This document shows, piece after piece, positions 29,291-39,763 of a stretch of 64,000 bases of DNA. A program made the translations under genes and the position numbers. The first letter of the stretch is position 1. Each line of letters starts with the position of its first letter. The notes below the pieces were generated by a model. It had not been told where the DNA came from and did not search any database. It saw nothing but the letters and a program-made list of their open reading frames with translations. Source of the DNA: Magnetospirillum sp. SS-4 (GTDB lineage: Bacteria > Pseudomonadota > Alphaproteobacteria > Rhodospirillales > Magnetospirillaceae); assembly GCF_902729425.1 (NCBI RefSeq), contig NZ_CACVCH010000081.1, positions 1 through 64,000 on the forward strand, read 5' to 3'.

Positions 29291-29863
29291 ATGTCCGATC
29301 GTGTTCTCATCCTGGTGGCGATATCCATCATCCTGGCCCTGGTGTTCGGCACCAGCCTTCAGATGCGCAAGCCGCAGGCGGTGTCGCCCCTGCTGATCGA
29401 ACAGGTTTCGGTGGCCAAGGTGCCGCGGCCGCTGTCCGATATCGCCTCGGTGGATGCCGACGGCGCCAGTCTGCCGTTCAATGCCCGCGTCACCCGGCCG
29501 ACCATCATCAATTTCTGGGCGACCTGGTGCATTCCCTGCCTGCGCGAGCTGCCCACCCTGGGGCAGTTCAAGGCCATGGCCGACGCCGCCGGCATTGACG
29601 TCCTGATGGTGTCCGAGGACAAGGAAGGCGCCGGCCCGCCGGTCAAGGTCCTGGCCGAGAAGGGATTGTCCCATCTCAGGCTGGTGGTGGACGCCGACGG
29701 CTCGGTGGCCAAGGCGCACCGGGTGAACGGCATGCCCACCACCCTGATCGTCAACGAAAAGGGTGTCGAGATCGCCCGCATGACCGGCGAGGCCGACTGG
29801 AGCCAGAAAGCCTCGCTGGATGTGGTGACCGGGCTGTTGAACGGAACCCTGCCGGAGCAGTGA
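29291..29863 (+). CDS. TlpA-like membrane-anchored thioredoxin
   Basis: The 190-residue product has an N-terminal membrane anchor (RVLILVAISIILALVFGTS) and a periplasmic thioredoxin fold with C80-I-P-C83 (NFWATWCIPCLREL) and the cis-Pro GMPTTLIV. It is likely a thiol reductant for the nearby CuA-containing subunits or for SCO, by analogy with TlpA. A TTG at 29198 would extend it by 31 residues. It is followed closely by ctaA. Confidence 0.88.
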   Translation: MSDRVLILVAISIILALVFGTSLQMRKPQAVSPLLIEQVSVAKVPRPLSDIASVDADGASLPFNARVTRPTIINFWATWCIPCLRELPTLGQFKAMADAAGIDVLMVSEDKEGAGPPVKVLAEKGLSHLRLVVDADGSVAKAHRVNGMPTTLIVNEKGVEIARMTGEADWSQKASLDVVTGLLNGTLPEQ

Positions 29864-29874
29864 GGATTCTCGGG

Positions 29875-30963
29875 ATGAGCAGCGCGACCGATTCCCTCGA
29901 AACCACCGGCCTGGCCGGATCAGGCCCCGCCGCCCACCGCCCCGCCGCCCACCGCCATGTCGCCGTCTGGCTGCTGGCCTGCTGCTTCATGGTGGCGGTG
30001 ATGGTGCTGCTGGGCGGACTCACCCGCCTGACCCATTCCGGCCTGTCCATGGTGGAGTGGGAGCCCATCCGAGGCATCATCCCCCCCCTGACCGAGGCCG
30101 ACTGGCAGCTGTTCTTCGACAAGTACCGCCAGACTCCGGAATACATCAAGGTCAACGCCGGGATGAGCCTGTCCGACTTCAAGGGCATCTTCTGGCTTGA
30201 ATACATCCATCGGGTCTGGGGGCGGCTGATCGGCCTGGTTTTTCTGCTGCCGTTCCTGTGGCTGGCCTATTCCGGCCGCATCGGCAAGGAGATGATTCCC
30301 CGCATGGTCGGGCTGTTCCTGCTGGGGGCGGCCCAGGGCGGCATGGGCTGGTTCATGGTGAAAAGCGGCCTGGTCGACAATCCGGCGGTCAGCCACTACC
30401 GCCTGACCGCCCATCTCGGCCTCGCCTTCCTGATCCATGCCTGGATGTTCTGGATGGCGCTCGACATCCTGGCCGCGCATCGGCCGCCGCCCCGCCGGCT
30501 TGGCGACGATGCCGCCGCCACCGTCCGCTGGCTTGGGGTCCTGACTGCGCTGGTGGTGGCGACGCTTCTTTACGGTGGTCTGGTCGCCGGCCTCAGGGCC
30601 GGCCTGATCTACAACACCTGGCCGCTGATGGACGGCAGCCTGATTCCCAAGGGGCTGTTCGCCACCGGCCTGCACGAGGCGTTCGAGGACCATATGACGG
30701 TCCAGTTCATTCACCGCACCCTGGCCGAACTGACCGTCGTGGTCGCGGTCGTCGGCTGGTTCGGCGCCCGCCGGCGGCTGGGAAGCGCCGTGCCGGCCTC
30801 GGTCCACGCCGTGGCGGCCATGGCGGTGGCGCAGGTGGGACTCGGCATTGCCACTCTTCTCATGGTTGTCCCCGTATCGCTGGCCTCGGCCCACCAGATG
30901 GGGGCGATGCTGCTGCTGACCCTCTGTCTGTGGGCCATGCACGGCTTGCGTCGACAGACCTGA
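29875..30963 (+). CDS. ctaA: Heme A synthase
   Basis: The 362-residue protein has eight membrane helices. Two pairs of heme-ligand histidines are seen in EYIHRVWGR and HLGLAFLIHAW, and in VQFIHRTLAE and LASAHQMGAM, as in COX15/CtaA. It converts heme O to heme A. The ATG at 29875 has GAGG 8 bases upstream; a GTG at 29860 overlaps the previous gene. Its place directly before a heme-copper enzyme suggests that this enzyme may carry heme A, but this cannot be read from sequence. Confidence 0.93.
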   Translation: MSSATDSLETTGLAGSGPAAHRPAAHRHVAVWLLACCFMVAVMVLLGGLTRLTHSGLSMVEWEPIRGIIPPLTEADWQLFFDKYRQTPEYIKVNAGMSLSDFKGIFWLEYIHRVWGRLIGLVFLLPFLWLAYSGRIGKEMIPRMVGLFLLGAAQGGMGWFMVKSGLVDNPAVSHYRLTAHLGLAFLIHAWMFWMALDILAAHRPPPRRLGDDAAATVRWLGVLTALVVATLLYGGLVAGLRAGLIYNTWPLMDGSLIPKGLFATGLHEAFEDHMTVQFIHRTLAELTVVVAVVGWFGARRRLGSAVPASVHAVAAMAVAQVGLGIATLLMVVPVSLASAHQMGAMLLLTLCLWAMHGLRRQT

Positions 30964-31300: not shown

Positions 31301-31843
31301 ATGTCTATCACTCCTCCGAAAGCCGGCTGGTACAATGAACCAGTCGACAAGGTCGAGTTGCTGTGGGTCGGCATCGCCCTGGTGTGGGCGCTCATCATGT
31401 TCGCCATGATGCCGCTGTGGCACCTCAAGGGCACCCAGAACATGTCCAACGAGGCCTATCGCATCCACCCCGAGGCCTTCCAGGCCAAGGTCGATGAGAT
31501 GGTCGAGAAGTACAAGGTGGGTGAGGAAGGCAAGGTTCAGACCCCGGTGGTGCGTCCGCCGGCCGGTTCCGACGTCTACCTGCTGGCCCGCCTGTGGGAA
31601 TGGTATCCGGTTCTGGAACTGGAGCAGGGCAAGAGCTATCGCCTGCACCTCTCCTCGCTGGATTGGCAGCATGGTTTCTCCGTGCAGCCGGCCAACATCA
31701 ATTTGCAGGTCCATCCCGGTATCGACGAGGTGGTGACCATCACTCCGACCACGTCGGGTGATTTCGGCATCATCTGCAACGAATACTGCGGTATCGGCCA
31801 CCACACCATGCTCGGAAAGATCCGAGTCGTGGCAGCCAAGTAA
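31301..31843 (+). CDS. Heme-copper enzyme subunit II with CuA site
   Basis: The 180-residue protein has one N-terminal membrane helix (about 20-40) and a periplasmic cupredoxin domain. The CuA set is complete: H124, C159, E161, C163, H167 and M170 (CNEYCGIGHHTM). It takes electrons from a cytochrome c or similar donor and passes them to subunit I. The short single-helix form resembles the ba3-type rather than the two-helix aa3-type subunit II. It lies 16 bp before subunit I. Confidence 0.92.
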   Translation: MSITPPKAGWYNEPVDKVELLWVGIALVWALIMFAMMPLWHLKGTQNMSNEAYRIHPEAFQAKVDEMVEKYKVGEEGKVQTPVVRPPAGSDVYLLARLWEWYPVLELEQGKSYRLHLSSLDWQHGFSVQPANINLQVHPGIDEVVTITPTTSGDFGIICNEYCGIGHHTMLGKIRVVAAK

Positions 31844-31859: not shown

Positions 31860-33536
31860 ATGGTTGCCAAGCCCGTATTTCGAACCTGTGGCCTCACAGG
31901 TCTGAAAATTCACGACGAAGCTGAAAAGCTGATCAAGGCCAACGCGGTCGTCGCCATCGTGGTGCTGGCCGTCGGTGGTCTGTTCGGTCTGCTCGTCGCC
32001 CTGACCCGCTGGCCGTCCGTGCATCTGCTGCCGGCCGACCTGTTCTACCTGGCGCTGACTGCGCACGGTATCGACATCCTGATCGTCTGGTGCATCTTCT
32101 TCGAAGTCGCCCTGATGTACTTTGCCTCGGCCATTCTTCTGGGCAGCCGGCTGGCGGCCCCCAAGATGGGCTGGGTCGCGTTCGCCCTGATGGTCCTGGG
32201 CGCCGTCATCACCAACTGGAAGGTCCTTGAGGGCAATTCCAGCGTGATGATGACCTCCTACGTGCCGATGCAGGCCGATCCGCTGTTCTACGTGGGTCTG
32301 ATCCTGTTCGCCGTGGGCGCGCTGATCGCCTGCTTCATCTTCCTCGGCACCCTGGTGGTCGCCAAGGCCGAGAAGACCTATGAAGGGTCGATTCCGCTGG
32401 TCACCTTCGGTGCCCTGGTGGCCTGCATCATCGCGGTCTACACCATCGCCTCCGGCGCCATCATCCTGATCCCGACCTTCCTGTGGTCCATTGGCCTGAT
32501 CGGCCATATCGACCCCCTGATGTACAAGGTCGTGTGGTGGGGCATGGGCCACTCGTCGCAGCAGATCAACGTGGCCGCCCACATCGCTGTGTGGTACGCC
32601 ATCGCCGCGATCCTGTTCGGCGCCAAGCCGCTGTCCGAGAAGGTCAGCCGCATGGCTTACCTGACCTACGTCTTCTTCCTCCAGATCGCCTCGGCCCACC
32701 ATCTGCTGGTGGAACCCGGCCTGTCGTCGTCCTACAAGATCTTCAACACCTCGTACGGCATGTATCTCGCCGTGCTGGGCTCGATGATCCACGGTCTGAC
32801 GGTTCCGGGCTGCATCGAGGCGGCCCAGCGCAAGAAGGGCTTCAACAAGGGCCTGTTCGAGTGGCTGCGCAAGGCTCCGTGGGGCAATCCGGTGTTCTCC
32901 GGCATGTTCCTCTCCCTGATCATGTTCGGCTTCCTGGGCGGCATCTCCGGTGTCACCATGGGCGTGGAACAGATCAACATCATGATCCACAACACCATCT
33001 ACGTCCCCGGCCACTTCCATGGCACGGTGGCGGTCGGCACCACGCTGGCGTTCATGGCGATCACCTACTTCCTGGTGCCCGCCCTGTGGCAGCGTGAAAT
33101 CATGTTCCCGGGTCTCGCCAAGTTGCAGCCGTACCTGTTCGGCCTCGGCATGGGCGTGTTCTCGCTGTTCATGATGGGCGCCGGCACCCTGGGCGTGTCC
33201 CGCCGTCACTGGGACATGGCCTTCTCCGACGCTCCGCATGCCTTCAGCCATGCCCCCGCCGCCTATCTGATGATGGGCGTGGTCGGCATCTCCGCCGTCG
33301 TGGCGGTGGTTGGCGGCGCGCTGTTCGTGCTGATCATCGTCTGCTCGGTGTTCTTCGGAAATCCGATCAAGGCGACCGCTCCGGCTCCGGCTCCGTCGCC
33401 GGTGGCGTCCTACGGCAGCGAGGAGCATGCCAGCGTTCCGGGTACCTTCACCCTGGCGCTGCTGTTCCTGACCATGTTCGTGCTGTACTACTTCGTGAAC
33501 TGGAAGTATCTGGCCAGCACCTGGCTCATGAGCTAG
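31860..33536 (+). CDS. Heme-copper oxidase superfamily subunit I with non-canonical active site (candidate eNOR-type NO reductase)
   Basis: The 558-residue protein has about 14 membrane helices. All six canonical histidines are there: H69 (low-spin heme, helix II), H231 (helix VI), H280-H281 (helix VII), H385 and H387 (helix X). The residue four after H231, which is Tyr in A/B-type oxygen reductases and Glu in cNOR/qNOR, is Gln235 (GHSSQQINV). That argues against a standard oxidase. A Gln here together with a CuA subunit II is, as I recall, a feature of the eNOR group. The ATG at 31860 has GAGGGGGAG upstream. A strong terminator follows, so the unit is 31128-33536. Confidence 0.85.
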   Translation: MVAKPVFRTCGLTGLKIHDEAEKLIKANAVVAIVVLAVGGLFGLLVALTRWPSVHLLPADLFYLALTAHGIDILIVWCIFFEVALMYFASAILLGSRLAAPKMGWVAFALMVLGAVITNWKVLEGNSSVMMTSYVPMQADPLFYVGLILFAVGALIACFIFLGTLVVAKAEKTYEGSIPLVTFGALVACIIAVYTIASGAIILIPTFLWSIGLIGHIDPLMYKVVWWGMGHSSQQINVAAHIAVWYAIAAILFGAKPLSEKVSRMAYLTYVFFLQIASAHHLLVEPGLSSSYKIFNTSYGMYLAVLGSMIHGLTVPGCIEAAQRKKGFNKGLFEWLRKAPWGNPVFSGMFLSLIMFGFLGGISGVTMGVEQINIMIHNTIYVPGHFHGTVAVGTTLAFMAITYFLVPALWQREIMFPGLAKLQPYLFGLGMGVFSLFMMGAGTLGVSRRHWDMAFSDAPHAFSHAPAAYLMMGVVGISAVVAVVGGALFVLIIVCSVFFGNPIKATAPAPAPSPVASYGSEEHASVPGTFTLALLFLTMFVLYYFVNWKYLASTWLMS

Positions 33537-33674: not shown

Positions 33675-34484
33675 ATGTTTCGCTTCATCACACTGATCCT
33701 GCTGGGGCTTTCCCTGTCGGGGATGCCGCCGGCCATCGGGGCGCCGACCGTTTCCGCCAATGCCGAGGCGGCGCTGAAGGCGTCGCTCGAGTCGGTGGGC
33801 CGGACTGTCGGGCCGCATCTTTTGCGCGATCAGGACGGCAAGCCGGTGGATATCGCCTCGTTCCGGGGCAAGCCACTGGTGATCAGCATGGTCTATACCG
33901 CCTGCGACCACACCTGCCCGGTGACCACCCAGACGGTGGCCAAGGCGGTGGAGGTGGCGCGCAAGTCGCTGGGGCGCGACGGTTTTCATGTGGTGACCAT
34001 CGGCTTCGACACGGTGCGCGACACCCCGGAGGCGCTGCGCATGTACGCGAAGCAGCATGACATCGGGCTGGACGGCTGGACCTTCCTGGCCGGCGACGCC
34101 GCCACGATGGAGGCGCTGGCCGCCAATCTCGGCTTTACCTGGTTCGTCACCTCCAGGGGGTTCGACCATATCGCCCAGACCACGGTGGTCGACGCCGATG
34201 GCGTCATCTACCGCCAGGTCTATGGCGAGAATTTCGACATTCCGCTGCTGGTGGAACCGCTGAAGGACCTGCTTTTGGGGCGGGTGTCGGCGGCGCTGGA
34301 TTCGGTCGAGGCCATCGGCAACCGCATCCGCTATTTCTGCACGGTCTACGACCCCCGATCCGATGCCTATCGCTTTGATTACGGCATCATTCTTTCGATC
34401 GCGTTCGGCTTCCTGGCCGTCCTGACCATCATCGTCTGGACCTTCAGGCTGTGGCGCGAGAGCCGGTCCGCCTCGGGTTCGTGA
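33675..34484 (+). CDS. SCO1/SenC-family copper chaperone
   Basis: The 269-residue protein has a signal peptide, a thioredoxin-like SCO domain with C77 and C81 (YTACDHTCPVTT) and H165 (GFDHIAQTT), the copper-binding set, and an unusual C-terminal membrane helix (IAFGFLAVLTIIVWTF, about 245-262). SCO proteins deliver copper to, or reduce, the CuA site of subunit II. It starts the second respiratory unit and probably serves the CuA subunits at 31301 and 37956. Confidence 0.92.
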   Translation: MFRFITLILLGLSLSGMPPAIGAPTVSANAEAALKASLESVGRTVGPHLLRDQDGKPVDIASFRGKPLVISMVYTACDHTCPVTTQTVAKAVEVARKSLGRDGFHVVTIGFDTVRDTPEALRMYAKQHDIGLDGWTFLAGDAATMEALAANLGFTWFVTSRGFDHIAQTTVVDADGVIYRQVYGENFDIPLLVEPLKDLLLGRVSAALDSVEAIGNRIRYFCTVYDPRSDAYRFDYGIILSIAFGFLAVLTIIVWTFRLWRESRSASGS

Positions 34485-34520: not shown

Positions 34521-36086
34521 TTGTCTAATCCAATCAAAACCGCGCTGAGGAACGGCCTGTTCCGCGTCGAAAGCGGCTGGGACGCGCTGGTCGGACGCGA
34601 ATCGAACCCCATGTACTGCCTGGGCGCCATGTCGTGGTACTTCTTCTGGATCGTGGGGGCGTCGGGTCTGTACCTGTTCATTCCCTACGACACCAGCGCG
34701 GCGCGCGCCTGGGACTCGATCCAGTACATCTCCACCGAGCAATGGTACTGGGGCGGCATGATCCGCAGCCTGCACCGCTACGCCTCGGACGCCATGGTGC
34801 TCACCATGATGCTCCACCTGCTGCGGGAATGGCTGATCGACCGCTATCATGGGGTCCGCTGGTTCGCCTGGTTCACCGGCGTGCCGCTGATCTGGATGGT
34901 GTTCGCCTCGGGCGTCACCGGCTATTGGCTGGTGTGGGACGAACTGGCGCAGTACCTGGCGGTCGGCACCGCCGAATGGCTGGACTGGCTGGGCATCTTC
35001 GGCCAAAGCATCGCGCGCAACTTCCTCAACCGGGAAGCCCTGACCGATCGCTTCTTCACCCTGCTGATCTTCATCCACATCGCGGTGCCGCTGTTCCTGC
35101 TGTTCGCCATGTGGGTCCATATCCTGCGCATCAACCGCGCCAACACCAACCCGCCGCGGCCCCTGGTCATCGGCGCGACCTTGATGCTGGTGGCGCTGTC
35201 GCTGATCTATCCCGCGCAGAGCCATCCGCCGGCCGATCTCGACAAGGCCACCAGCGTGCTGAACCCGGACTGGTTCTTCATGGGGCTGTATCCGCTCTAT
35301 GATACCAAGGGACCGGCCGTGGCCTGGGCGGTGGCGGTGGGCGCCAGCATCTTCCTGTCGCTGATGCCGTGGATGGCGTTCCGCCGCAAGCGGCGCAAGC
35401 CGGCCCAGGTGTCGCCGCCCAACTGCAACGGCTGCGGCGTCTGCACCTTCGATTGTCCGTTCGGCGCCGTGGTCATGCGTCCGCGCCAGGACGAGTCCGG
35501 GCATCAGAAGATCGCGGTGGTCCAGCCCGACCTGTGCACCAGCTGCGGCATGTGCATGGCGTCGTGCAACCGGACCAATCCGTTCCTGCCCAGCCAGAAG
35601 CACGAGACCGGCATCGACATTCCCGATTTCTCCTTCGATCTGATGGTCAAGCGGATATCGGCCCGGACCCATGGCCTGGTGGGCGAGGGGCGGGTGATGG
35701 TGCTGGGTTGCGAGCACGGCTCCGTCCTCGACCATCTGAAGGGGCCGTCGGTCGGCGTCCTGGCGCTGCATTGCACCGGCATGCTGCCGCCATCGCTGAT
35801 TGATTATATCTTGAACAAGGACCTTGCCGACGGCGTGCTGGTCACCGCGTGCCGCCCCGGCGAATGCTTCTACCGTCTCGGGCCGGAATGGACCGAGCTG
35901 CGTCTGGCGGGGCAGCGCGTGCCCAAGCTGCGCGGCGCGGTGCCGCGCGACCGGGTCCGCCTGTCCTGGGCGGCAAGCACCGAGACCAAGGCGCTGGCCG
36001 CCGATCTGGCCGCGTTCCGCGCGGCCCTGGCCGACCTGCCCAAGCCGGAACGGCCGGAAACCACCAAGAGGAGGGTGGCGGAATGA
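34521..36086 (+). CDS. Cytochrome b - 2[4Fe-4S] ferredoxin - MvhD-like fusion
   Basis: The 521-residue protein (TTG start with AAAAGGAAA upstream) joins three modules. Residues 1-290 are a cytochrome b/b6-like membrane part with the two bis-His pairs H85/H99 and H186/H200, each spaced by 13. Residues 300-350 are a ferredoxin with two clusters, C302/C305/C308/C312 and C339/C342/C345/C349. Residues 390-490 resemble the delta subunit of methyl-viologen hydrogenase (MvhD): LGCEHG, ALHCTGMLPPS, then GVLVTACRPGECFYRLG, with C397, C418, C444 and C449. It is likely a membrane quinol/Fe-S electron-transfer protein feeding the neighbouring enzyme. It overlaps the next gene by 4 bp. Confidence 0.85.
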   Translation: MSNPIKTALRNGLFRVESGWDALVGRESNPMYCLGAMSWYFFWIVGASGLYLFIPYDTSAARAWDSIQYISTEQWYWGGMIRSLHRYASDAMVLTMMLHLLREWLIDRYHGVRWFAWFTGVPLIWMVFASGVTGYWLVWDELAQYLAVGTAEWLDWLGIFGQSIARNFLNREALTDRFFTLLIFIHIAVPLFLLFAMWVHILRINRANTNPPRPLVIGATLMLVALSLIYPAQSHPPADLDKATSVLNPDWFFMGLYPLYDTKGPAVAWAVAVGASIFLSLMPWMAFRRKRRKPAQVSPPNCNGCGVCTFDCPFGAVVMRPRQDESGHQKIAVVQPDLCTSCGMCMASCNRTNPFLPSQKHETGIDIPDFSFDLMVKRISARTHGLVGEGRVMVLGCEHGSVLDHLKGPSVGVLALHCTGMLPPSLIDYILNKDLADGVLVTACRPGECFYRLGPEWTELRLAGQRVPKLRGAVPRDRVRLSWAASTETKALAADLAAFRAALADLPKPERPETTKRRVAE

Positions 36087-36589
36087 AGATCAAGCCGCAG
36101 CACATCGCCGGCCAGGCGCTGGCCTATACCGCCTTCGCCGTCGTGATCGCCTACTTCTCGGCGTCGCCGTCCTACATCCATCATCCGCCGGATGCCGCGC
36201 TGCTGAAGCTGTCGTTGACCCATGCCGGCCAGCGGGTGGACGACTGCAAGGAGCGCACCGCCGAGGAACTGGCCAAGGTGGCGCCCAACATGCGCACCAA
36301 GCAATCCTGCGGCCGCGAGCGCAACGCCGTGACCCTGGAGATGGACATCGACGGCAAGCCCGTCTATCGCCATACCGCCAAGCCGGCCGGCCTGTCGGGC
36401 GACGGGCGCTCGCGCTTCTACGATTCGCGCGAGATTCCCGCCGGCCGCCACGTCATCCGGGCCAGGATGCGCGACGGCAACAACCCCGACGTATTCGACT
36501 ACGATTCCGAGATCGTGGTTGACCTCAAGCCCCGTCAGGTGTTCGTGGTCGATTTCGATGAAGAGGACAAGAAGCTGTCCTTCAAGTAG
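36083..36589 (+). CDS. Membrane-anchored protein of the second heme-copper cluster, unknown
   Basis: The 168-residue product starts MKIKPQHIAGQALAYTAFAV with one N-terminal membrane helix and a periplasmic beta-rich part. C79 and C102 (DDCKERTAEE, KQSCGRERN) could form a disulfide. The ATG at 36083 overlaps the stop of the cytochrome b fusion and has GAGGAGGG upstream; the longer open frame back to 35849 lies inside that gene and is not used. It precedes the second subunit I by 3 bp. The tight coupling implies an assembly or structural role. I do not recognise the family. Confidence 0.7.
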   Translation: MKIKPQHIAGQALAYTAFAVVIAYFSASPSYIHHPPDAALLKLSLTHAGQRVDDCKERTAEELAKVAPNMRTKQSCGRERNAVTLEMDIDGKPVYRHTAKPAGLSGDGRSRFYDSREIPAGRHVIRARMRDGNNPDVFDYDSEIVVDLKPRQVFVVDFDEEDKKLSFK

Positions 36590-36592
36590 ACC

Positions 36593-37963
36593 ATGGAGAC
36601 GATGCTGACGACCTGGTCCCCCACCTCCCTCTCTCCGGCCCGCCGCTCGGAACTGCGCGGCTGGCTGCTGCTGGCGGTGGGGTCGCTGGCCATCGCCGGC
36701 ATCCTGGCCCTGCTGCTGGGATTGTCGCGAACCCCCGGGGCGCAGGACTGGCTGCCCTGGGGGCCGCACTTCTTCTACCGCGCCCTGGTCACCCATGTGG
36801 TGCTGTCGGTGGTGGTCTGGTATCTGGCCTCGCTGGGAGCGCTGTCGGTGCTGGCGGCCTCGGCTGGGAACGGCGGCGACCGCCTCGGCTGGACCGGCTT
36901 GCTGCTGGGGGCGGCCGGGGTGATCTTGCTGCTGATTCCCGCCCTCGCCGATCAGGGCGAGCCGTCGCTGAACAATTACGTCCCGGTGGTCGGGCATCCC
37001 CTGTTCTACGTGGGATTGGGCCTGCACGCCCTGGGCGTCGCCATCGCCGCCCTGCGGCCGCTGGCGCTGCTGTGGCGCCTGCCCCGCCGGCCGGTTCCGT
37101 TCGCCATCGCCTGCGCCGCCCTGACCTATCTGGCGGCGCTCGCCTGCTTTCTGCTGGCCTGGACGCTGATCCCGGCCGGGACCGATCCCGACTTGTTCAA
37201 CGAGCGGGTGTTCTGGGGCGGCGGCCATGTGTTGCAGATTCTGAATACCCTGATCCTGATGATCGCCTGGCAGGTACTGAGCGAGCGCGAATTCGGCACC
37301 GGTCCGGTGCCGGCGGGTCTGGCCAATGCCGGTTTCGCCGCCCTGGCGCTGTTCGCCGTCGCCTCGCCGCTGGTCTACTGGTTGGGGGGCGATGTCCTGG
37401 GGCTGGGGCACCGCCAGATCTTCACCCGCCTGCTGTGGGTCGGCCTGCCGTTGCCGCCGCTGGTGATGGGGGCCGGGCTGGCGTTGCGTCTGCTGCGCGG
37501 GCCGAGGAACTGGCGTTCGCCGGCCTTCCTGTCGCTGGCGCTGTCGCTGGTGGTGTTCGCCATCGGCGGTTTTGCCGGATTCTTCCTGGGGGTGGCCGAC
37601 ACCCGCACGCCGTCGCATTACCACGCCGTGATCGGCGGCGTCCAACTGGGCCTGATGGGGCTGATCCTGGTGGTGATCCTGCCGCTGCTGGGGCGCCGCC
37701 TCGGCGAGGGCAGGGCGGGGCGGCTGCAATTCCACCTCTATGGCTGGGGGCAGCTGATCCACGCGCTGGGCTTCTTCCTGGCGGGCACCGCCGGGGTGCC
37801 GCGCAAGACCACCGGCCTGGATCAGGGGCTCGACACCTTGTGGAAGAAGGTTTCCATGGGGGTGGTCGGCATGGGGACCGGCCTGGCGGTGCTGGGCGGC
37901 GTCATCTTCGTGTGGATGGCCCTGGCCCGGCTGCTGCGGCGCGGGGAGGGCGGGCATGACTGA
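36593..37963 (+). CDS. Divergent heme-copper oxidase superfamily subunit I with altered CuB site
   Basis: The 456-residue protein has about 12 membrane helices. Matching positions to other subunits I: H68 in helix II (VTHVVLSVVVW), H212 in helix VI (WGGGHVLQIL), H342 and H344 in helix X (SHYHAVIGG). In helix VII only H273 is present, followed by Arg (GLGHRQIFT), where other members have HH. The residue four after H212 is Ile, so the Tyr or Glu of oxidases and cNOR is absent. An Asp at 267 lies in the same region. This fits one of the unusual NO-reductase-like groups (gNOR/sNOR type) better than an oxygen reductase, but the group cannot be fixed by eye. It overlaps its subunit II gene by 8 bp. 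Confidence 0.75.
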   Translation: METMLTTWSPTSLSPARRSELRGWLLLAVGSLAIAGILALLLGLSRTPGAQDWLPWGPHFFYRALVTHVVLSVVVWYLASLGALSVLAASAGNGGDRLGWTGLLLGAAGVILLLIPALADQGEPSLNNYVPVVGHPLFYVGLGLHALGVAIAALRPLALLWRLPRRPVPFAIACAALTYLAALACFLLAWTLIPAGTDPDLFNERVFWGGGHVLQILNTLILMIAWQVLSEREFGTGPVPAGLANAGFAALALFAVASPLVYWLGGDVLGLGHRQIFTRLLWVGLPLPPLVMGAGLALRLLRGPRNWRSPAFLSLALSLVVFAIGGFAGFFLGVADTRTPSHYHAVIGGVQLGLMGLILVVILPLLGRRLGEGRAGRLQFHLYGWGQLIHALGFFLAGTAGVPRKTTGLDQGLDTLWKKVSMGVVGMGTGLAVLGGVIFVWMALARLLRRGEGGHD

Positions 37964-38435
37964 GCGGCGCGGCTTCGCCCCCATCGCCCTGGTTCTGGCC
38001 AGCCTGCTGCTGCTGCTGACATGGCTGGGCGGCCATGGTTGGGAACCCACCCTGGCCGTGGAAAGCTATGCCGTCGATTCCGCCGCCTTCACCGCCCGTT
38101 TCGAGGCGCAACTGGCGGCCCACGCCACTGGCGAGACCATCGGCACCATGTCGGTGGTGCGTCCGCCGCCCGGCGATGTGGTGGTGCGGGTCCGGCGCTG
38201 GGAATTCTCGCCGGCCCTTGAGCTTCGGCCGGGCCAAACCTACCGGCTGCACCTGCTGGCCGAGGACGTGGTGCATTCCGCCGCCATCGGCGATGCCGAG
38301 GAACTGCTGGTGCCGGGGGTGGTCAAGGTGGTCACCCTGGTCACGCCGCCGTCGGGGCGGGTGCGCATCCAGTGCGGCGAATATTGCGGTCTGGGCCACA
38401 CCAAGATGATCGGCAGCATCGAAATCGTCCGGTAA
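37956..38435 (+). CDS. Second CuA-containing subunit II
   Basis: The 159-residue protein has one N-terminal membrane helix and a cupredoxin domain. The CuA ligands H107, C140, E142, C144, H148 and M151 (CGEYCGLGHTKM) are complete. It is short, like the subunit II at 31301 and ba3-type ones. GGGGAGGG lies before the ATG, within the last codons of subunit I. It supplies electrons to the divergent subunit I. Confidence 0.9.
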   Translation: MTERRGFAPIALVLASLLLLLTWLGGHGWEPTLAVESYAVDSAAFTARFEAQLAAHATGETIGTMSVVRPPPGDVVVRVRRWEFSPALELRPGQTYRLHLLAEDVVHSAAIGDAEELLVPGVVKVVTLVTPPSGRVRIQCGEYCGLGHTKMIGSIEIVR

Positions 38436-38559
38436 CCTTCCAGCGGTCGGCGGCGAACCCTCGACAGGAACGTTTTGTCGGAAGGGACCGGAGATGGATT
38501 GCGCCGCCACGGTTTCCGGGCCATGGTTGCCTTCGGCGGGGAAGGAAGGCCATCGCGGC

Positions 38560-39138
38560 ATGACCGTAGCCGGAGATTCGGATTGGAGCGCCATGATGCG
38601 CGCCGCCCAGGGCGGCGACAGCCGCGCCTACGCCGCCCTGCTGACCGAGATCACCCCGGTGCTGCGCCGGGTGGTGCGGCGGCGCTGGGGCGGGTCCGGG
38701 TCGGCCGACGCCGAGGATGTGGTTCAGGACGTGCTGATATCGCTGCATTCGGTCCGCCATACCTATGACCCCGCCCGGCCGTTCATGCCCTGGCTGATGG
38801 CCATCGTCTCGTTCCGTCTCAAGGATGCTGGCCGCAAGGCGGCCCGCCGTTCGGTCCACGAGCGTTCGGAATGGAGCCTGGAGCACGGCCTGCCCGACGC
38901 CGCCGCCGAACCGGCGCCGGAAAGTCCGGGTGATTCCGAGGAACTGAGGCGCGCCATCGCCAGCCTGCCGGACGGGCAGCGCCGCGCCATCGAACTGATG
39001 AAGCTGGAGGAACATTCGCTGAAGGAGGCCGCCGCCGTCACCGGCATGAGCGTCGGGGCGCTGAAGGTGGCGGTTCACCGGGGATTGAAGACCTTGCGCG
39101 CGGTCCTGGCGGGAGGAAAGCATGACCGGAACCGATGA
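38560..39138 (+). CDS. ECF-type RNA polymerase sigma factor
   Basis: The 192-residue protein has region 2 (ADAEDVVQDVLISLHSVRHTY, RPFMPWLMAIVSFRLKD) and region 4 (LPDGQRRAIELMKLEEHSLKEAAAVTGMS). It is of the type that is paired with NrsF (DUF1109) anti-sigma factors, as in Caulobacter SigF. The ATG at 38560 has AAGG upstream; the frame is open to 38494. It overlaps the anti-sigma gene, and follows the CuA gene by 124 bp. Confidence 0.92.
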   Translation: MTVAGDSDWSAMMRAAQGGDSRAYAALLTEITPVLRRVVRRRWGGSGSADAEDVVQDVLISLHSVRHTYDPARPFMPWLMAIVSFRLKDAGRKAARRSVHERSEWSLEHGLPDAAAEPAPESPGDSEELRRAIASLPDGQRRAIELMKLEEHSLKEAAAVTGMSVGALKVAVHRGLKTLRAVLAGGKHDRNR

Positions 39139-39763
39139 TCTGATCCGTCGTCTGGCCGAACGCGCGGTTCCGGTGCGACGCCTGCGTCCGCCCCTGATGC
39201 GGGCGGCCCTGTGGCTGGCGGTGGTGGTTCCGGCCCTTCTTGGCGTCGCCCTGGTCATGGGGCCGCGTGTCGATCTGGCCGGGCATCTGGCCGAGCCGTC
39301 GGCGCTCTTGACCCTGGGCGCCGGCCTCGTCACCGCGTTCTGCGCCGCCGCCGCCGCGCTGGCCCTGGGGATTCCGGGGCTGTCGCCGGGCTGGGCCTTG
39401 CTGCCGCTGCCGCCGATGCTGGTTTGGCTGGCCGGGTTCGGCCGCCAATGCGTTCTGGAATGGCTGGGGCTGGTCGAGGGCAGCCGTCTTGGCCTGCCTC
39501 ATCCGGAATGCCTGCCCGATATCGTGGTGATGACCGCGGTTCCCACCGTCGTCATGGTGATGATGGTGCGCCGCGGCGCCTGGCTGCGGCCGCGCCTGGC
39601 CCTGGCCATGGGGGGACTGGCGGTGGCGGCCCTGACCAATTCCGCCCTCGGCCTGATCCATCCCGACGACGCCGGCCTGCTGGTGCTTCTGGTCCAGTTC
39701 GCCGTCCTGGCGTCGCTGGCGGCGGTGCTGGGCAGGACGCCGCCGATCCGGTCGATTCCTTGA
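39122..39763 (+). CDS. NrsF/DUF1109-type membrane anti-sigma factor
   Basis: The 213-residue protein has six membrane helices and the layout of DUF1109/NrsF, including cysteines in FGRQCVLEW and LPHPECLPD. In the Caulobacter protein such cysteines take part in sensing redox-active metals. It should hold the upstream ECF sigma factor inactive at the membrane. GGGAGGAAAG precedes the ATG, inside the sigma gene. Confidence 0.88.
   Translation: MTGTDDLIRRLAERAVPVRRLRPPLMRAALWLAVVVPALLGVALVMGPRVDLAGHLAEPSALLTLGAGLVTAFCAAAAALALGIPGLSPGWALLPLPPMLVWLAGFGRQCVLEWLGLVEGSRLGLPHPECLPDIVVMTAVPTVVMVMMVRRGAWLRPRLALAMGGLAVAALTNSALGLIHPDDAGLLVLLVQFAVLASLAAVLGRTPPIRSIP

Follow-up and report, generated by a model that had tools for sequence, protein, structure and literature searches.

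The question raised by this locus is what a second subunit I of the heme-copper oxidase (HCO) type, with an altered CuB site, is doing at the end of an eNOR gene cluster. The window, that is, the whole stretch of 64,000 nucleotides from Magnetospirillum sp. SS-4 that was analysed, carries a tightly packed cluster whose genes, like all codons given below, lie on the forward strand. Its order is the heme A synthase gene ctaA (29860–30963; PF02628, 359.5 bits), the eNOR CuA subunit II (31301–31843; CoxB, E 1.5e-11), the eNOR subunit I with its HH pair and GHSSQQ motif (31860–33536; PF00115, 215.9 bits, and alignment), a Sco1/SenC-type protein (33675–34484; PF02630, 63.8 bits), a cytochrome b/two [4Fe-4S]/FlpD fusion recognised by Pfam (34521–36086), a 168-aa protein (36083–36589) and, at the end, a COX1-like subunit I of 456 aa (36593–37963) with its own CuA subunit II of 159 aa (37956–38435), the last two ORFs overlapping by a few bases. 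Eight related loci, 77–82% identical, came from Paramagnetospirillum, Magnetospirillum, Phaeospirillum and Terasakiella records, and in all nine cases (Magnetospirillum sp. SS-4 and its eight relatives) the COX1-like gene and its CuA subunit II lay in the eNOR cluster. A ctaB gene was found near the COX1-like gene in six of the related loci (L002–L007), and none was detected in the 64-kb window, L001 or L008.

The first-pass annotation had described the COX1-like protein as a heme-copper-like subunit I, and this was borne out. It matched PF00115 with 60.3 bits (cut-off 34.8), and its AlphaFold (AF2) model (pLDDT 92.8, pTM 0.93) superposed on aa3, ba3 and cbb3 subunits over 408–429 residues with VIA Z scores of 27.8–29.8 and rmsd values of 3.2–3.9, the best Foldseek match being ba3 (TM 0.77). 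The Pfam match and the fold together place it in the HCO superfamily; a phmmer search of the PDB with the single sequence returned unrelated weak matches only. The partner subunit, which has an N-terminal hydrophobic stretch, scored below the family cut-offs (CoxB, E 2e-7, under the equivalog cut-off; COX2, 20.6 bits against a cut-off of 22). Its CuA motif, CGEYCGLGHTKM at residue 140, was nevertheless complete, as had been claimed: by homology the ligands would be H107, C140, E142, C144, H148 and M151, in the pattern H, C-x-E-x-C, H, M.

We then looked at the metal-ligand sites, using for conservation and gene context a set of 109 family members, which is a subset of all matches, includes nine sequences of the Magnetospirillum sp. 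SS-4 group and two copies from one genome (G664), and contains some contexts that stop at a contig edge. The histidines expected in helices II, VI and X were present. H68 (codon 36794–36796), by homology the low-spin heme ligand of helix II, and H342-Y343-H344 (codons 37616–37624), the predicted heme ligands of helix X in an HYH that stands for the usual HFH, were found in 109/109 members, so that all three predicted heme histidines are retained; H212 of helix VI (codon 37226–37228), R404 and K405 were likewise invariant. The situation was different in helix VII. In a MAFFT alignment the HH pair of 16 eNOR sequences fell on V261-Y262 of the COX1-like protein (codons 37373–37378), with the same result when 8 eNOR sequences were used; hhalign of the family profile against an eNOR profile put HH on the same two residues (E 1.3e-34); and in a PDB profile search, whose best match was the Thermus thermophilus ba3 oxidase (E 4.5e-20), the HH of ba3 aligned with the family consensus I-Y. 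An HH dipeptide was absent from the whole COX1-like protein and, within residues 240–290 of its numbering, from every one of the 109 members; the pair itself was found in 0/109, and a histidine at its second position alone in 10/109. Since the three kinds of alignment agree on V261-Y262, both helix-VII CuB histidines are, judging from sequence, gone and H212 is the only CuB-type histidine left.

The first-pass annotation was thus right that the CuB site is altered, but it had placed an H273-Arg in the position of HH and counted one histidine as lost, with H273 as the surviving ligand. H273 (codon 37409–37411) is at another position: in the model H273-R274 lies 11–12 residues downstream of the HH position, near the start of a predicted helix (271–284). 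The three-histidine CuB or FeB site with a helix-VII HH that marks catalytic HCOs and NO reductases was therefore not found in the COX1-like protein. Four residues past H212 there is an isoleucine (I216), as had been noted; this His+4 position was Phe in 88, Leu in 8, Tyr in 7 and another residue in 6 of the 109 members, so that the tyrosine of the oxidases is present there in 7/109. The preceding Q215, at His+3, was kept in 108/109 and aligned without a gap with the first of the two Gln of eNOR; it sits on the ba3 tyrosine if one residue is skipped, as in the HMM alignment with its one-residue gap.

Does the protein belong to one of the known NO-reductase groups? The eNOR, sNOR, gNOR and nNOR classes were reportedly defined in a 2024 paper in PNAS. 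With eNOR, a CuA-type NO reductase that carries Gln at the Tyr position, it shares a CuA subunit II, the HCO fold, H68, H212, H342, H344 and Q215, and a place in the same gene cluster. However, the HH pair present in 16/16 eNOR sequences is V-Y in the COX1-like protein, eNOR has Gln at both His+3 and His+4 whereas the COX1-like protein has it at His+3 only, and the HFH of 8/8 eNOR sequences is HYH in 109/109 members of the COX1-like family. A quick tree of 125 rows put the 109 family members on one branch (SH-aLRT 99) and the 8 eNOR rows on another (SH-aLRT 100), in a sampling with few outside families, where long branches meet, and with gNOR, sNOR, qNOR and B-type oxidases left out. Membership in eNOR was rejected on the missing HH and the separate clade. 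The setting of the gene in these bacteria is that of NO-related loci. The B-type ba3 oxidase, the best match by profile and by structure, differs by its HH and by a Tyr where the COX1-like protein has Gln or Ile, depending on the register. The sNOR, gNOR, cNOR and qNOR enzymes resemble the COX1-like protein as HCO-superfamily NO reductases in which a residue close to the binuclear site is changed; at the Tyr position they have N, D, E and E, respectively (PMC8756737, Table A4). The protein was assigned to none of these four classes, since it has Q215 or I216 there, by register, and has lost both histidines of the pair; membership in gNOR or sNOR, which had been envisaged, fails because neither residue is the Asp or Asn listed. 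This comparison is by description, with class traits taken from Table A4 and general background, and covers eNOR, sNOR, gNOR, cNOR and qNOR. A further oxidase-family gene of the SS-4 genome was seen on contig C78 (L104:1444–2904; G000 C78:151743–153053). Its product of 487 aa contains HH, HFH and GHVFINATIY, the last with the Asn at His+4 that is listed for sNOR, and a Sco-like protein is encoded nearby (by eye); the genome may thus hold three NO-reductase types, namely eNOR, a NorB-like gene on contig C6 and the C78 gene.

The COX1-like family turned out to be widespread. Of 199 genomes of the order, 131 gave matches to a profile made from the nine sequences (E ≤ 1e-30), a few of them as contig-edge fragments. 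With a wider profile the family was also detected elsewhere in the class, in four genomes from other orders (G256, G307, G309 and G407), and in other classes, the count of 58 genomes including some with eNOR-range matches only, such as G626. Among 19 positive genomes of the class, 13 had an eNOR-range match only (ORFs of 566–597 aa) and no COX1-like gene, and in a further genome, G284, such a match was shorter; the five of those 13 proteins that were aligned all carried HH. For the sequences collected by then, the scores formed two non-overlapping groups, the family at about 219 bits or more and eNOR at 98–138 bits. Against the eight relatives dN/dS was 0.16–0.28, which indicates purifying selection. 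This, and the fact that the loss of the CuB pair is common to all 109 members, argue that the loss is more than chance. Two longer relatives of the family (L097:5310–7193 and L098:7121–9256; ORFs of 628 and 743 aa) lay in clusters where a ResB/CcsA-like gene and genes for CxxCH-rich proteins were recognised by eye, and could possibly form a second CuB-less subfamily.

Looking at the neighbourhoods of the COX1-like gene (109 contexts, 6 kb on either side, with examples of DUF420, CtaB and cytochrome cd1 NirS checked by Pfam/NCBIfam), we found DUF420 in 74, ctaB in 74 and both in 62. Other neighbours were aa3 COX1 (55), Cox11 (42), ctaA (21), Sco (18), eNOR (11), an ABC-2 type permease (7: L042, L051, L080, L082–L084 and L088) and nirS (5). 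At least one of the assembly genes ctaA, ctaB, DUF420, Cox11 and Sco was near the COX1-like gene in 95/109 contexts. A downstream CuA subunit was present in 24/109, five of them with a variant motif; on the starred branches of the tree no fewer than four changes of this label are required, which indicates repeated gain or loss of the CuA subunit.

The association with DUF420 was also seen across genomes. In raw counts that ignore phylogeny, the 199 genomes of the order comprised 125 with both the COX1-like gene and DUF420, 6 with the COX1-like gene only, 4 with DUF420 only and 64 with neither. The corresponding numbers for ctaA were 126, 5, 46 and 22, meaning that 126 of the 131 COX1-like genomes possess ctaA. 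Among the 172 ctaA-bearing genomes, the COX1-like gene and SURF1 occurred together in 5, the COX1-like gene alone in 121, SURF1 alone in 25 and neither in 21, a strong anticorrelation in these raw numbers; 22 of the 25 SURF1-only genomes belong to one genus, and with that genus counted once, and no correction for phylogeny, it weakened to p = 0.04. In all 47 chosen COX1-like genomes there was a stronger COX1-family match, as judged by match strength with the CuB site left aside (E 1e-113 or better in 46, and 1.6e-68 in G033). One of the 47 is a 1.3-Mb genome that has retained the COX1-like gene with two COX1-family matches in all.

How does the SS-4 locus fit into this picture? In the SS-4 genome DUF420 and ctaB lie together on another contig (C69), and a COX1-like gene is missing from between them; G140 shows the same arrangement, whereas G133, of the same family of bacteria, has kept the order DUF420–COX1-like–ctaB (L042). 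This comparison suggests that the COX1-like gene moved out of the DUF420–ctaB cluster within the Magnetospirillaceae. The coupling survived the separation: of the 12 genomes sampled in the SS-4 genus, the nine with the COX1-like gene have DUF420, as well as ctaA and eNOR, and the three without it lack DUF420. Of these three, G118 has ctaA and SURF1 and no eNOR, and G170 and G180 lack all five genes. The sister genus g4 was different again. There, nirS adjoins the COX1-like gene in 5/6 genomes and a CuA subunit II was found in 4/6, with eNOR in 0/6; eNOR was present in one (G063) of the 21 genomes searched outside the SS-4 genus, so that CuA-linked members without eNOR do exist there. The 168-aa protein encoded directly upstream in the window gave zero Pfam or NCBIfam matches at E 0.1. 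In its model (pLDDT 83, pTM 0.64) a single helix at the N-terminus precedes a domain rich in beta structure. The model superposed on an HGSNAT domain (VIA Z 9.3, rmsd 2.7, 94 residues), and Foldseek gave no significant match (best E 4e-3), so no function is claimed for it. Its gene is present in 11/109 contexts spanning two classes, and the order cytochrome b fusion, 168-aa protein, COX1-like gene is repeated in two genomes of another class (L081 and L089).

Because of the DUF420 coupling, a role in oxidase biogenesis is the best-supported reading of the COX1-like family. More precisely, we propose, with confidence just short of even and from sequence comparison, that the protein is a two-heme, CuB-less HCO paralogue whose family would serve the biogenesis or upkeep of heme-A oxidases together with DUF420 (CtaM) and the heme O synthase CtaB, and that in the SS-4 lineage it left the DUF420–ctaB cluster for that of eNOR and acquired a CuA subunit II as partner. 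The protein would bind two hemes, a low-spin one through H68 and H344 and a high-spin one through H342, and in the 24 CuA-linked members electrons would enter from CuA. It would not work as a binuclear-site reductase of O2 or NO. Such a redox chain may assist the loading or maturation of a client oxidase, for instance by holding copper or heme in the reduced state; alternatively, the COX1-like protein may act as a template that partners assembly factors. The CuA-bearing form of the Magnetospirillaceae would be a derived version able to take electrons from cytochrome c.

Bacillus, which uses CtaM, is not known to have a protein like those of the COX1-like family. CtaM itself is an unrelated small membrane protein, here the neighbour and genome-wide partner of the family. 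According to excerpts of PMC9145763 and PMC13344008, Bacillus needs it to obtain active aa3 and caa3 oxidases, even though hemes a and a3 are still made in its absence, and a part in copper handling, by export or reduction, has been proposed for it. In the open-access literature (most subscription papers are outside this scope) we found no description of the COX1-like family save one mention of a ctaB-adjacent protein. This is a COX1-like protein of Acetobacter which, according to an excerpt of PMC10715153 citing earlier work, has none of the metal-binding residues and possibly stabilises CtaB. It resembles the family by its place next to ctaB and is set apart, by that description, by the heme histidines and H212 that the family keeps in 109/109. 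The portions of PMC6431628, PMC4013037, PMC8239418, PMC12808453, PMC11014258 and PMC12774639 that were covered contain nothing on the family. RNA-seq of M. gryphiswaldense, in the part of PMC9549626 that was covered, reports MSR1_08150 (a putative cytochrome c) and MSR1_08970 (a putative cytochrome c oxidase) as up under anoxia; judging from the tag numbers, MSR1_08150 seems to be a gene other than the COX1-like one.

Several observations count against the biogenesis reading. The COX1-like gene is absent from 46 of the 172 ctaA-bearing genomes, so that clients exist without it, and 13 of the 19 positive genomes of the class have the eNOR-range match without it. Fourteen of the 109 contexts contain no assembly gene at all; seven of these (L041, L057, L058 and L106–L109) are from genera g4 and g6 of the SS-4 strain's own family, and in the g4 genomes with nirS both ctaB and DUF420 are absent within 6 kb. 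Finally, an assembly factor would not be expected to have a CuA subunit of its own. A broader proposal, possible in our view with chances clearly below even, is that this unnamed family does two-heme, CuB-less redox work as a partner of CtaM/DUF420, and that the Magnetospirillaceae turned it into an electron-transfer enzyme of NO-related loci, fed by CuA.

The main rival to the biogenesis reading takes the CuA-linked form as an enzyme in its own right, in which electrons would pass from CuA through the low-spin heme to a mononuclear high-spin heme, where NO or a related N-oxide would be reduced with no second metal. We regard this as doubtful. Its strengths are the complete CuA ligand set of the partner, the conservation in CuA-linked members of D336-T337-R338 (24/24), D267 (23/24) and R274 (22/24), the constant place in the eNOR cluster of the SS-4 group, and the g4 genomes, where nirS adjoins the gene and eNOR is missing. 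It has to contend with the NorB-like gene also present in the SS-4 genome (by eye) and with the 85 of 109 members for which, in contexts that sometimes end at a contig edge, no CuA partner was detected; 76 of these 85 members are near an assembly gene. Moreover, the known NO reductases of the HCO superfamily hold their second metal by three histidines.

A gas or redox sensor built on the oxidase fold, tuning denitrification or oxidase expression, seems improbable. Two Crp-like genes adjoin the COX1-like gene in L057 and L058 of g4 (by eye; one was checked by Pfam), and in the window an ECF sigma factor and NrsF-type pair (38494–39763) lies between the CuA subunit II gene and a GH1 glucosidase; that pair, however, does not follow the CuA subunit II gene in L003 or L008, and a role for it was rejected on this account.

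Very improbable, in our estimation, is the idea of the first-pass annotation that a metal is still bound, through H212, D267 and H273, in an altered CuB or FeB enzyme. The three residues are indeed invariant in the nine closest sequences, the eight close homologues retaining H68, R274, H342 and H344 as well, and D267 (codon 37391–37393) is Asp in 23 of the 24 CuA-linked members. Of the three, however, only H212 holds throughout the wider family. H273 is His in 26/109 members (28/64 in another set and alignment, as this loop aligns unstably) and in 15 of the 24 CuA-linked members, and the 109 members include 44 with Asp and 21 with Glu at position 267. In addition, both residues lie past the HH position, towards the next helix of the model, and the residue aligned with D267 is Asp or Glu in eNOR and Asp in ba3, both of which have the full HH, which makes D267 an unlikely replacement ligand.

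A decaying oxidase paralogue without function, to which the loss of the CuB ligands might point, is scarcely credible, and a decayed pseudogene was rejected, given the heme ligands kept in 109/109 members, the low dN/dS and the retention of the gene in a 1.3-Mb genome.

Altogether, the CuB centre defines heme-copper oxidase activity, and here a widespread family has kept the predicted heme ligands and appears to have given CuB up. This, and its association with CtaM/DUF420 and heme O synthase, point to a so far overlooked role in the building of oxidases, or to one-metal chemistry on the scaffold. Because they match COX1 models, such genes would be taken for oxidases or NO reductases, and surveys of respiration and denitrification would be skewed as a result. 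The tight coupling with DUF420 also makes the role of CtaM testable in an alphaproteobacterium. If the proposal of a CuB-less redox partner rebuilt for NO-related loci is true, the Magnetospirillaceae would possess a complex of the heme-copper superfamily that works without its defining binuclear centre.
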